Assembly: GCA_013376995.1 (NCBI GenBank)
Contig: JACAAZ010000004.1
Coordinates: 209,052 to 273,051, forward strand
Source of the DNA: Bacteroidota bacterium
Lineage (GTDB): Bacteria > Bacteroidota > Bacteroidia > Bacteroidales > UBA4417
Length of the DNA stretch: 64,000 nt
Reading direction: 5' to 3'
Positions 9,303 to 27,940 of the stretch are shown here, piece by piece. Each line of letters starts with the position of its first letter. The stretch's first letter is position 1. A program made the position numbers and the translations under genes. A model generated the notes under the pieces. The model ran no database searches. It had not been told where the DNA came from and saw nothing but the letters and a program-made list of their open reading frames with translations.

Positions 9303-9390
9303 GGGAGTAGGTTGCAGGCAGGTGGCCGGAAGCCTGAAGCCGGGAGCCGGAAGTTGGAAGTAAGAAGTAGGAAGTCCGAAGGAGGTGGGC
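9300..9390. repeat. Heptanucleotide degenerate repeat array, GGAAGYN type
   Basis: Thirteen 7-base units in unbroken phase: TAGGGGA, GTAGGTT, GCAGGCA, GGTGGCC, GGAAGCC, TGAAGCC, GGGAGCC, GGAAGTT, GGAAGTA, AGAAGTA, GGAAGTC, CGAAGGA, GGTGGGC. The first unit contains the stop codon of the nucleoside phosphorylase gene. Open frames crossing it on the minus strand are Leu/Pro/Thr-rich by-products of the repeat, not genes. Confidence 0.85.
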
Positions 9391-9652
9391 ATAAGCGACA
9401 GTGATTGAATAATAGAATTCCTGGTAACCGCGTTTTTCCACGCTCGCATCCGCGTAATCCCTGTCTGCCGGCGGGCAGGCGCGTTCCATTTTATACTATC
9501 AACAGATTATACATTTTTCTTTCAAATTATTTGATCAAAGTCGGTGTTTGAATTCACCTCAATTCCTATTCACGATGTTTTGTTGATAATTCTCCGGAAG
9601 AACTTTCTGAGTCATTGAAATGGTAAGTATTTTTAGCTGAACCAAATTTGCT
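9391..9652. other. Intergenic spacer with a GC-rich palindrome
   Basis: No credible gene. At 9465-9478 lies CTGCCGGCGGGCAG, an imperfect palindrome (one mismatch) of the kind often seen dispersed in Bacteroidota genomes. The rest, up to the SirB1-like gene, is AT-rich and shows no terminator or clear promoter that I can support. Confidence 0.5.
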
Positions 9653-11499: not shown

Positions 11500-11509
11500 G
11501 GGGGGTATG

Positions 11510-11551
11510 TTATTGATTATTGGTTATAAGTTGTTGGTTATTAGTTGTATG
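11510..11551. repeat. Heptanucleotide degenerate repeat array, TTATNRG type, in the purC leader
   Basis: Six 7-base units in phase: TTATTGA, TTATTGG, TTATAAG, TTGTTGG, TTATTAG, TTGTATG. It starts 11 bases upstream of the purC ATG. The same unit family recurs at 26029-26077. Confidence 0.75.
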
Positions 11552-11613
11552 ATTTACCAGGTTTTGGCTATTAATAATTATCGCCCTAAAAATATTGCTC
11601 GTTGGCGGCTATG

Positions 11614-17365: not shown

Positions 17366-17420
17366 AGTCTTTTTGCATCGAAGCTGATTATGATTCAACC
17401 TTAATTATTCGTTATTGAAA

Positions 17421-18407
17421 ATGGAAAAACTAATAAGTAATACAAGGGTGTTGGTTACCGGGGGAGCTGGATTCATTGGATCGAACCTGATTGAAGCCTT
17501 GCTGCTACAGGACAATGAGGTTGTTTGCCTGGATAACTTTGCCACAGGGAGCCGCAAGAACCTCCTGCCATTTCTTGATAACAGGAAATTTAAGCTTATA
17601 GAAGGCGATCTTCGTAATGAGGCCGATTGCAGGAAAAGTGTTGAGGGAATACAGTATGTTCTGCAACAGGCTGCCCTGGGTTCCGTACCCAGGTCAATCA
17701 AAGATCCGGTAACTACCAATGCAGTTAATGTTTCAGGTTTTCTTAATATGCTTGTCGCAGCCAGGGATGCCGGTGTTAAAAGGTTTGTTTACGCAAGCAG
17801 TTCATCCGTTTACGGAGATCACCCCGGACTTCCCAAAATAGAGGAAGAGACCGGAAACCCATTGTCTCCGTATGCAATTACGAAGAAAGTTAATGAATTA
17901 TACGCCGGCGTTTTTGCAAACCTTTATGGGATGGAAGTTGTCGGTCTAAGATATTTCAACGTTTTCGGGAAACAGCAGGATCCTGATGGTGAATACGCAG
18001 CCGTCATACCCCGATTCATCAAAGCATTGATAAGGCATGAGCGGCCAGGGATTTTTGGTAACGGAGAGCAGTCAAGGGATTTTACCTATGTTCAGAATGT
18101 AGTTCATGCGAACCAGGCTGCAGCACTTGCCGATGACCCCGAGGCTTTGAATTCTGCTTACAACATTGCTTATGGTGAGAGAATAACGTTGAACCAACTT
18201 TACAATTTGTTAAGGGAATACCTTTCTGAATTTGATCCTGCAATTGCCACCATCGAACCCTTGTATCTTGCCGATCGTGCAGGTGATATTCCTCATTCGC
18301 TGGCTTCCATAGATAAAGCCAGGAGATTATTGGGGTATGAACCCATGTATTCTGTTAAGGTTGGATTAAAGAAAGCTATTTCCTGGTATTGGGAGAATTT
18401 GAAGTGA
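17421..18407 (+). CDS. NAD-dependent UDP-sugar epimerase (UDP-GlcNAc 4-epimerase, WbpP/TviC-like)
   Basis: A 328-residue short-chain dehydrogenase of the extended type started at ATG 17421 (an in-frame TTG lies two codons earlier). The NAD-binding loop is VTGGAGFIGSNLIE, followed by YVLQQAALGSVPRSI, the catalytic triad phrase YASSSSVYGDH with Ser, Tyr in YAITKKVNE (Y-x3-K), and GLRYFNVFGKQQDP. The AALGSVPRS and SSSSVYGD phrases favour the WbpP/TviC group that interconverts UDP-GlcNAc and UDP-GalNAc or their uronic acids. It would supply sugar donors for surface polysaccharide, but no polysaccharide cluster surrounds it. Specificity is inferred. Confidence 0.85.
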   Translation: MEKLISNTRVLVTGGAGFIGSNLIEALLLQDNEVVCLDNFATGSRKNLLPFLDNRKFKLIEGDLRNEADCRKSVEGIQYVLQQAALGSVPRSIKDPVTTNAVNVSGFLNMLVAARDAGVKRFVYASSSSVYGDHPGLPKIEEETGNPLSPYAITKKVNELYAGVFANLYGMEVVGLRYFNVFGKQQDPDGEYAAVIPRFIKALIRHERPGIFGNGEQSRDFTYVQNVVHANQAAALADDPEALNSAYNIAYGERITLNQLYNLLREYLSEFDPAIATIEPLYLADRAGDIPHSLASIDKARRLLGYEPMYSVKVGLKKAISWYWENLK

Positions 18408-18420
18408 GGATATTGAAATT

Positions 18421-18460
18421 CAAATAGCAAATAGCAAAGAGCAAATAGCAAATTGCAAAT
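18421..18460. repeat. Heptanucleotide repeat array, AAATAGC type
   Basis: Five full 7-base units and a partial one in phase: AAATAGC, AAATAGC, AAAGAGC, AAATAGC, AAATTGC, AAAT. It starts 13 bases after the epimerase stop. CAAATTGCAAA (18449-18459) is exactly inverted at 18550-18560. Confidence 0.85.
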
Positions 18461-18549
18461 CTGTCAGTTGATGGAAAAATGCAAAATGCGTTGCCCGTAG
18501 GCACACTAATTGAAATTTAGCTCTGTTTTCTGAAAATTAATCTGAGTGT

Positions 18550-18661
18550 TTTGCAATTTGATATTTTTCAATTTGCATTTTGCCCTGCACTCTCGCATCG
18601 CGCTCAGCCCTCAACCCTTCGCCCTTCATCCTCTGCGCCCTGCGCTATGCCCTCAAACCTT
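18550..18661. repeat. Heptanucleotide degenerate repeat array running into the rubredoxin gene end
   Basis: Sixteen 7-base units can be read without a phase break, drifting from TTTGCAA, TTTGATA, ATTTGCA at the left to CGCCCTT, CATCCTC, TGCGCCC, TGCGCTA, TGCCCTC, AAACCTT at the right. The right edge overlaps the last codons and stop (18653-18655) of the minus-strand rubredoxin gene. It is inverted relative to 18421-18460. Confidence 0.65.
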
Positions 18662-24370: not shown

Positions 24371-25909
24371 TTATTGCTTAACCAGAATTTTTGATTGCTG
24401 ATGATCATTAGAAAGAAGTTTCAGAACATAATTGCCTGCTGGTAATTTTTGCAGGGAGATATTTGCTTCACCTTTTTTTAATTTTCCCCTAAGCCATTTC
24501 CTGCCTTGAATATCAGATAATTCATAACGAATTTCATCCACGTTTAAAGTAGAATAGATCGTAATTCTGTCTGAAGCAGGATTTGGCCAGACAGAAAACC
24601 CGGTATTAGCGTCGGATTCTGAAATGGATTGTGGGTGAAGCTGTTCCAATATCTTGGATCTCCTAAGGAGAAGAAATGGTTTTATGCCATAAGGAGTGTG
24701 TTGGTCAATAGTTTGATCGTAGCCATTGTAAAAATCTGAAACGGAATATCCCCAGTCCAGTGTTCTATAGGTATCTGCTTCGGCGGCCGATGAAATTAAA
24801 TTGCGAAGGCTGTCAATATGGGGGAAAATGGAATCGGGCAGTGTAAATCTTCGGACAATGGTGTCAAGATACTGCTCATATTTAGCTTTAAGAGCAGGTA
24901 CATTCAATAATCCGGTAGCAAGTGGCCTGGGTTCTGAAAGCATTAGCCATTGCTTGCAATCCCTGGTTGCCCAGTCCTCATTCATCCAATCAACTCCAAA
25001 TGTGTTGTCGGTATCATAGGTAATGTATTCAAATTTCCCGGTGGCTAGGTTGTGATAAAGGAAATAATTGTTCTTGTTGTACATATAGTCATCCCAATTT
25101 CCGGTTGCTACGTCCAGTGCAAAGGCTTTAAGAGTTTCGTCAATATCGAGCAGGTTTGATAACTGGGAGACAAATGCAGGGTTTTCGGGATGGTCAAGCA
25201 AGGTGATAAGCGCAACCAGGTCGCTGTAATCGTCTGTTGTTTCATTTGTTTGCAGTTCATATACCCTTCCACCTGTAGCAGTTGTATTCAGGAGGTCTTT
25301 ATACGATTGCTGGTTATCATTAATGTATTCCAATGTTGCCGGGTATGTGCATTTATAGAGGTTGCCGCTATTTTCGGGATATACACGTTGCAGCCAGTCT
25401 TTGTCGAATTCTTCAAGGTTTGTGTAGAGACCGTAATAGGAATTATTTATATATAGCCTGACGAAGTTGGTTCGCCTTTCTGCCATTCCCAAATTTTTCC
25501 ATGTATCATAGAAAAGCTTTTCCCTTATGAGTGTAGGGTCGTTATGCTGTCCATTCAGGTTTATTTTCTTGACGCCCTGGTACTTTCTACCTTGAGCGTA
25601 TTCATTAAAACTCAGTTTAAAGGATTTTTTCTGCGAAAACCTTGATGTGTTTCCCCTCAGCCTGAAACCAATGTTTTCGAGTGTATCCCTGCCCGAACTG
25701 TAATCAAAAATGAACCTTGCTTTTACATAGTGATCTGACAACACATTATCCATGATCCAATTGAGCGAATCAGGAGGTATTTCGATATATACGGTATTTA
25801 CCTGTGAATCATCGAAAAGTGAATTTTGAGCGGAAGCTTTCAGGCTTACCAAACCCAGGGCTAGAACCAGGAATGGAAAGAAATAAGGATGAGAGGGAAG
25901 TGATTTCAT
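24371..25909 (-). CDS. Secreted CotH kinase family protein with T9SS type A tail
   Basis: A 512-residue protein with a signal peptide (about 1-27), the CotH kinase domain (about 35-420) and a type A T9SS sorting domain (about 440-512, NTGFSVWPNPASDRITIYST to ILVKQ). CotH proteins are secreted atypical kinases first known from Bacillus spore coats. Seen are FRLRGNTSRFSQKKSFKLSF, the NLNGQHNDPTLIREKLFYD region and the metal-site phrase YDTDNTFGVDW. In Bacteroidota such proteins are exported through the T9SS, but their substrates are unknown. The N-terminal anchor-like stretch LLDDSQ precedes the kinase lobe directly. Confidence 0.9.
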   Translation of the reverse strand: MKSLPSHPYFFPFLVLALGLVSLKASAQNSLFDDSQVNTVYIEIPPDSLNWIMDNVLSDHYVKARFIFDYSSGRDTLENIGFRLRGNTSRFSQKKSFKLSFNEYAQGRKYQGVKKINLNGQHNDPTLIREKLFYDTWKNLGMAERRTNFVRLYINNSYYGLYTNLEEFDKDWLQRVYPENSGNLYKCTYPATLEYINDNQQSYKDLLNTTATGGRVYELQTNETTDDYSDLVALITLLDHPENPAFVSQLSNLLDIDETLKAFALDVATGNWDDYMYNKNNYFLYHNLATGKFEYITYDTDNTFGVDWMNEDWATRDCKQWLMLSEPRPLATGLLNVPALKAKYEQYLDTIVRRFTLPDSIFPHIDSLRNLISSAAEADTYRTLDWGYSVSDFYNGYDQTIDQHTPYGIKPFLLLRRSKILEQLHPQSISESDANTGFSVWPNPASDRITIYSTLNVDEIRYELSDIQGRKWLRGKLKKGEANISLQKLPAGNYVLKLLSNDHQQSKILVKQ

Positions 25910-25940
25910 TAAGAAATTGCAGCTGGTGAGGTTCGAAGTT

Positions 25941-25948
25941 CAAAGATA
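25941..25948 (-). promoter_or_regulatory. -7 element of the cotH-like gene
   Basis: TATCTTTG on the minus strand, full TAnnTTTG match, 31 bases upstream of the ATG at 25909. Confidence 0.45.
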
Positions 25949-25991
25949 CATCCAATGTTTTTAAAGGATAGGAATAATTTCAGCCTGCAAT

Positions 25992-26022
25992 AAAAAAAGA
26001 GCCCCGGAAACCGGAGCCCTCT
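25992..26022 (-). terminator. Rho-independent terminator beyond gdhA
   Basis: On the minus strand, an AGAG...CTCT-closed hairpin with a CCGG-TTT-CCGG core (one mismatch, small bulge) is followed by seven T's (25992-25998). It lies 130 bases after the gdhA stop; the two heptad arrays lie between, so they would be part of the gdhA mRNA. Confidence 0.65.
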
Positions 26023-26028
26023 TTGGAG

Positions 26029-26077
26029 TTATAAGTTATAAGTTATTGGTTATAAGTTATAGGTTATTGGTTGATTT
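26029..26077. repeat. Heptanucleotide repeat array, TTATNRG type (left arm)
   Basis: Seven 7-base units in phase: TTATAAG, TTATAAG, TTATTGG, TTATAAG, TTATAGG, TTATTGG, TTGATTT. Same unit family as 11510-11551. Inverted relative to the next array. Confidence 0.85.
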
Positions 26078-26106
26078 TGTATTACATTGAATCAAGTCCA
26101 ATAGCA

Positions 26107-26148
26107 CTAATAACTAATTTCTAGTAACTATTAACTAATCACCATTAG
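26107..26148. repeat. Heptanucleotide repeat array, CTAATAA type (right arm)
   Basis: Six 7-base units in phase: CTAATAA, CTAATTT, CTAGTAA, CTATTAA, CTAATCA, CCATTAG. The first unit is the reverse complement of TTATTAG, a form of the TTATNRG unit. It ends three bases before the gdhA stop codon. Confidence 0.8.
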
Positions 26149-26151
26149 CTT

Positions 26152-27576
<1,425 letters not shown>

Positions 27577-27940
27577 TGTTTTTTTGGTTTTTTCTGTTAT
27601 TTCAGTAACAACTGTAATTTGAAGAAAAACAAGTAGTTGCAGACGTTTTTTTATGATTAAGAAAATTTCTTACTAAATTCAGTAAATTACTTAATTTGCA
27701 AAAGTCAAAATACCTCTTTCTGTTGAATGTATTGACACTCTCGATACAGCAATTACGGATTGATGAAAAGTTAAGCCAGAGAATATGTAAATAGGCTTAT
27801 TTTATGATTTGAGGCTGAATGAACTTATCGGTAGGAACTACCCAAGAGCATCATACAAGCCTAAAGAATATACTGTAGTTGTTGAGGATTTCAGTACTTT
27901 TAATTTTTGAACTACCGAACTATTTTTATTGCTAAATTCT
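27577..27940. other. Intergenic region upstream of the REC/ATP-grasp gene
   Basis: About 360 AT-rich bases between divergent genes. I see no gene, no RNA structure and no clear TAnnTTTG element for the plus-strand gene. Confidence 0.5.

Follow-up and report, generated by a model that had tools for sequence, protein, structure and literature searches.

The two heptad arrays that face each other downstream of gdhA, the glutamate dehydrogenase gene, are best read as one gap's share of a genus-wide population of intergenic heptad arrays, as judged from the three genomes sampled in the genus. Most of these arrays, which come in several sequence flavours, obey one polarity whichever way the nearest gene points. 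We assign a probability of roughly 0.6 to the reading that a polar expansion of heptads built the gdhA pair and that the hairpin it may form is possibly a retained by-product. The window, by which we mean the whole stretch of DNA analysed, is 64,000 nucleotides long, and the features around the pair are collected in Table 1.

Table 1. Position and character of the features at the 3′ end of gdhA (window coordinates)
Feature	Position	Strand	Description
gdhA, glutamate dehydrogenase	26152..27498	minus	ORF of 448 aa when started at the ATG at 27498; ends with the stop codon 26152-26154
Forward heptad arm	26106..26147	minus	Starts a few bases past the gdhA stop; about 6 degenerate units, of GTTANTA type when read in the gdhA sense
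Spacer	26073..26105		33 bases; prolongs the inverted repeat (TTGATT / AATCAA)
Reverse heptad arm	26028..26072	plus	GTTATNR × 6.4 on the plus strand; resembles AACNNATAAC when read in the gdhA sense
Terminator-like stem	25994..26024	minus	Uninterrupted helix of 14 pairs, three of them G-U, with a loop of 3 nt and a T run; −20.1 kcal/mol for 35 nt
Gene next downstream of gdhA, outside the finding	24371..25909	minus	ORF

Both arrays are versions of one heptad, GTTATTR, carried on opposite strands. Read along the minus strand, the order is gdhA stop codon, array 26147 to 26106, spacer, array 26072 to 26028 and stem. On the plus strand the array next to the stop codon reads as ACTAATA, and it is more degenerate than the GTTATNR array. 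GGG is absent from either arm, which leaves no G-tracts able to form G-quadruplexes. The ORF list gives gdhA from a TTG at 27549. The initial annotation had described two arrays facing each other between the gdhA stop and its terminator, and the coordinates bear this out. Some of its counts needed revision: the array described as seven TTATNRG units is present, with 6.4 copies according to TRF; the six CTAATAA units of the other array agree with a count of about six by eye, TRF giving 4.9 copies at 74% matches; and the arrays are separated by 33 bases, not 29. A simple terminator scan of 25700-27700 listed no terminator, the stem at 25994-26024 included. We nevertheless took this stem as the terminator because of its own fold and because a GC-rich stem with a T run also follows the gdhA stop in same-genus loci; its three G-U pairs were counted by reading the sequence.

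Folding of the arrays as RNA resulted in a predicted energy of −21.8 kcal/mol (z −2.65), and the arrays together with the terminator gave a z of −2.84. In both cases 1 of 200 shuffled sequences folded equally well; energies no better than those of shuffled sequence, the outcome that had been set against the hairpin beforehand, did not occur. The long imperfect hairpin claimed for the pair held in part. The arms can pair, but a three-hairpin fold of a nearly identical stretch (−21.9 kcal/mol) is isoenergetic with the long hairpin, which rules out the latter as the sole fold, and folding of the arrays as DNA gave a z of −1.70. The frequency of the best fold was 0.0009 for the arrays with the terminator and 0.023 for the arrays, and the piece common to the computed RNA folds is the inner inverted repeat in the spacer. 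Taken alone, the two arms form a predicted duplex of −11.8 kcal/mol, and the terminator folds at −20.1 kcal/mol. These data support that the arrays are situated where the gdhA transcript would include them and are able to pair. The predicted long hairpin is possible, being neither a unique fold nor obviously needed for protection, and protection of the mRNA by it looks redundant beside the terminator stem.

gdhA orthologues with at least 90% identity were present in 13 of the 16 genomes of the genus (own genome included), and the closest named loci belong to uncultured Bacteroidales assemblies (90-91% gdhA identity). The interval between stop and terminator was compared over 122 gdhA loci, 6 of them without a gdhA ORF and 26 without a terminator; once identical intervals had been merged, 85 were available, 22 of which were long enough to fold. 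The interval measured 78-134 nt in 11 same-genus loci, and in 74 other loci (L138 onward) it had a median of 29 nt, 63 of the 74 being at 50 nt or less; the terminators are unverified calls of our own finder. Two of the 13 same-genus loci, L055 and L057, are absent from this set. By eye, the sequence downstream differs between the same-genus loci, so that the long interval seems to go with gdhA. Several of these intervals contain heptad-like runs whose polarity points away from the gene. Their sequence drifts: L050 has a run of GTTATTA, L053 carries GTTAATG in its two arms and L056 carries GGTTCAG in its two halves, and the intervals of L052 and L058 show little heptad signal.

The fold z was negative in all 12 same-genus gdhA 3′ UTRs considered, L055 being included here with its terminator placed by eye. 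The mean was −2.2, whereas other 3′ flanks averaged −0.86 when array-free (120 flanks) and −0.70 when array-bearing (74 flanks; bootstrap P 0.014 and 0.004, respectively). These flank pools served as the control because a strict finder yielded just 16 stop-to-terminator control intervals (mean z −0.73), two of which were gdhA itself. Furthermore, the two halves of the gdhA interval matched each other better within species than between species in 11 same-genus loci (23.0 versus 18.1, P 0.003), an excess that was never reached in 300 draws from array-free and 300 draws from array-bearing 3′ flanks. This test was prompted by the copy in the window, a locus picked because the pair had been seen there; without that copy (L049) P was 0.012, and with L053 left out as well it was 0.054. 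The own partner arm ranked first in 4 of 12 species. Comparison of these sequences provides fair but not decisive support that pairing of the arms may have been kept in part of the genus, and template switching between the arms would equally give halves that match within species.

Arrays of the same period are dispersed well beyond gdhA. At a threshold of 23 of 35 matches, the 64 kb window contains 7 islands of period 7, and among periods 2-24 the other islands came solely from the multiples 14 and 21. A systematic 400 kb sample of the own genome (G000) contained 21 period-7 islands, against 0 to 6 for the non-multiples of 7 among periods 2 to 30. When this sample, a further 400 kb and the window were put together (864 kb), 31 period-7 islands were counted versus 0-10 for non-multiples (periods 4 to 16). 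Two other genomes of the genus gave 19 islands in 383 kb (G002; non-multiples 0-9) and 19 islands in 311 kb (G011; non-multiples 0-7), and 383.5 kb of stretches drawn from other families of the order (four genomes) held 2. The flavours include GTTATTR, GGAAG-, GACAAAA-, GGCAG-, GCAAA- and TTTGAA-types. The arrays are mostly intergenic: 130 of 166 islands lie between called genes, 24 within called ORFs and 12 at stretch edges. Gene calls were simple ORF calls, and terminators were again those of our own finder. Of the nineteen stretches L009-L027, every one except L023 was picked for matches to the 141-bp gdhA 3′ region, and these are either counted apart or named as included; L028, which overlaps L023, was left out of the counts. 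The loci of a second gdh paralogue (L062-L074) were also scanned for islands.

Several side observations concern the same stretches. Further period-7 islands of various flavours are found in the window at 9306-9391, 11505-11553, 17401-17442, 18406-18474 and 18590-18645. Three G000 contigs start inside a heptad array (L035, L039 and L044, position 1), so that arrays may break assemblies. In one genome from another family of the order (G087, stretches L254-L258), 83.5 kb contained no period-7 island and 8 islands of period 10. A dispersed palindrome, CCGYCAGCTGRCGG, occurs at 69 places in G000, for instance at about 2155 of L035 and about 14840 of L079, with 0 matches for the backward control; in the counted G000 stretches, 13 of its 14 copies are outside called ORFs and 6 of the 14 have a heptad island no more than 200 bp away. 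The heptad gaps at L046 11438-11702, L079 4758-5136 and L079 14768-15463 also carry repeats with periods of 16 bp and 11 bp. The idea that one shared core lies between the brackets of the gaps was rejected: there were 115 cross-matches among the masked gaps, and the four gaps inspected hold the 16 and 11 bp repeats instead.

The G-rich strand pointed away from the nearest gene in 109 of the 130 islands flanked by called genes, a count that includes the stretches chosen for GTTATTR hits. This was the case both for islands adjacent to a stop codon (66/81) and for those adjacent to a start codon (43/49). In the stretches not chosen for arrays, which take in the window itself and the stretches round gdhA loci, 35/46 islands of G000, 19/21 of G002 and 20/26 of G011 pointed away, resulting in 74 of 93 when pooled (binomial P 8e-9). 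The polarity was also recovered with GC skew alone. Scoring by purines only was weak in the chosen stretches (27/51), which are dominated by the GTTATTR type, a heptad not rich in purines. Given this polarity, gaps are often bracketed by convergent arrays, as is observed after gdhA. Pairs of islands within the same gap were convergent in 31 of 45 cases in G000 and in 12 of 18 in G002, with 0 divergent pairs in either genome and several pairs coming from one gap; the 2 pairs of G011 were both other than convergent. The fraction of gaps in which the left half is more G-polar than the right was 0.82, 0.88 and 0.89 for gaps with arrays (G000, G002 and G011, respectively), versus 0.58, 0.58 and 0.51 for gaps without arrays, which are nearly symmetrical. 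Array-free gaps between divergent genes of G000 lean likewise (0.68). Inward arrangement of gaps between divergent genes was found in 7/7 cases in G002, 1/4 in the unchosen G000 stretches and 0/1 in G011.

Complementarity between the arms is not a general property of such gaps. Arms from the same gap of G000 were less complementary than arms from different gaps (8.9 versus 17.2, 31 pairs), and the two values did not differ in G002 (10.25 versus 10.65), which shows that the gdhA pair is not typical. Two-sided gaps with a common flavour amounted to 5/13 in G000, or 5/19, 6/19 and 7/16 at other thresholds, the flavour call being loose and the chosen stretches included. Same-flavour pairs like that of gdhA are thus a minority, which argues against pairing as the general purpose of the arrangement. 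Flavour also appeared to divide by gene edge in G000 with the chosen stretches included: arrays of GTTATTR type were 22 at starts and 8 at stops, and the others 16 and 53 (Fisher P 4e-6). The GTTATTR flavour, however, prefers the start side solely when the chosen stretches are counted (29 start versus 12 stop in G000); the unchosen stretches of G000 lack this preference (4 start, 6 stop), and G011 shows the opposite one (2 start, 10 stop). Such a division may be one reason for the low complementarity of same-gap arms. Because the arrays are dispersed, ruled by polarity and, in G000, less complementary within a gap than shuffled pairs, a gdhA-specific device does not explain them.

The inward arrangement would most simply result from an oriented expansion that coding sequence holds in check. 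Arrays would arise by local, error-prone copying of the neighbouring 7-nt unit, always with one strand polarity, and any that extended into coding sequence would be lost, leaving the inward arrangement. At gdhA, the shared flavour of both arms would give a 3′ UTR able to fold back, and the complementarity of the arms would then have been kept in part of the genus, either by template switching between them or by weak selection for a 3′-UTR stem. The similarity between units declines with distance: adjacent units score 0.722 (75 arrays) and units eight apart score 0.577 (35 arrays), as local copying with errors would give. Directional growth was looked for as a gradient of homogeneity along the arrays and none was seen, the two halves being alike (0.722 versus 0.719, P 0.39, 75 arrays); homogeneity thus lends directional growth no support.

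The pair might instead be a functional RNA stem-loop of the gdhA 3′ UTR, under selection for mRNA protection or regulation or as the source of a small RNA derived from the 3′ UTR, with the heptads as its building material. We consider this possible but rather unlikely. It would account for the placement between stop and terminator, for the fold z of −2.65, for the negative z of the 12 same-genus 3′ UTRs relative to other flanks, for the matching of halves within species and for a longer interval retained across species whose downstream sequences, by eye, are not alike. However, the predicted helix is a weak AU one next to a much stronger stem, it competes with isoenergetic alternative folds and the best fold is rarely populated. 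The partner ranking (first in just 4/12 species) and the P of 0.054 without L049 and L053 also argue against it, and a search of Rfam with 25500-26500 returned 3 matches, all far below their gathering scores. Insertion of a mobile palindromic element (MITE or REP-like) after gdhA, to which the inverted arms and the longer interval in the genus would point, is very improbable. With 40 of the 75 candidates scored, the 141-bp region had 23 matches in the own genome, of which the locus itself is the only one matching the whole; the other 22 cover one arm and extend at most 17 bases into the spacer. Moreover, the interval sequence differs between species, and no shared mobile core was seen there.

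The polarity itself could be read as the trace of G-strand heptads added to 3′ ends at breaks, by a telomerase-like activity or one driven by a reverse transcriptase, with head-to-head joining afterwards. Extension on both sides of a break would be expected to give such a polarity, but the arms are set apart by spacers, and no RVT_1 match at E 0.001 was obtained in G002 or G011 (97% and 99% complete), both of which have arrays. An RVT_1 reverse transcriptase is therefore not needed for the arrays; the sole G000 match (E 0.001; L244 994-2310) reads like the reverse transcriptase of a group II intron. This origin appears improbable. Slightly better placed, if still unlikely, is the conjecture that the gaps record repeated directional extension of 3′ ends in 7-nt steps from both sides, a telomere-like head-to-head arrangement produced by a non-RVT_1 enzyme or a mode of a polymerase that would be shared with Xanthomonas, Nostoc and Beggiatoaceae. 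The least credible proposal is insulation by stop codons. Since 7 is coprime with 3, an array of heptads that contain TAG or TAA places stops in every reading frame, and the forward arm of gdhA is rich in both; yet stops in all three frames were found in 27/88 stop-side arrays on the sense strand versus 18/88 on the antisense strand, and the flavour GACAAAA is without any stop codon.

Heptad repeats have also been described in other bacteria. Mrazek et al. 2007, as cited in PMC4692102 and PMC4679880, found 7-mers to be over-represented among prokaryotic simple sequence repeats, and PMC4692102 credits them with the idea of slippage over the polymerase footprint. The preference of bacterial simple repeats for 7 bp still awaits an explanation, as PMC4692102 states for its own repeats. 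Among the matches listed in our literature search, the polarity rule in Bacteroidales was not the subject of any paper. Orthologous loci such as gdhA let the gain of arrays, their drift and the pairing of their arms be followed.

The heptads GGGAATC of Xanthomonas and GGGGA(T/C)T of Nostoc are described in PMC4692102 as repeats of period 7, mostly intergenic and dispersed. They have the same polarity as the arrays of the genus, and Xanthomonas also shows many convergent pairs: repeat sites that are convergent and close together number 70 cases in Xcc and 75 in Xac (PMC4692102). As described there, these heptads belong to one G-tract motif family capable of forming G-quadruplexes, whereas several flavours coexist in one genome here and the gdhA pair is AT-rich and devoid of GGG. 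TAACTGA heptads, reported from Beggiatoaceae, Cyanobacteria and five Bacteroidetes, lie in forward orientation just upstream of start codons, and in one of the Bacteroidetes one set is reversed just after the stop (PMC4679880). Their period of 7 and their polarity are the same as those of the genus arrays. The reverse complement of GTTATTR is one or two mismatches away from TAACTGA, and tandem TAACTGA was found 0 times in the G000 stretches counted. In the accounts of PMC4679880, the TAACTGA arrays stand a few nucleotides before a start codon, whereas the gdhA pair stands after a stop and before a terminator. The published systems, as described in PMC4692102 and PMC4679880, follow single motif families, whereas the rule is obeyed here by several flavours within a single genome. 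Genomes of this kind, with many flavours and mostly one polarity, separate the traits that are fixed, namely the period and the strand direction relative to the gene, from the one that is free, the sequence.
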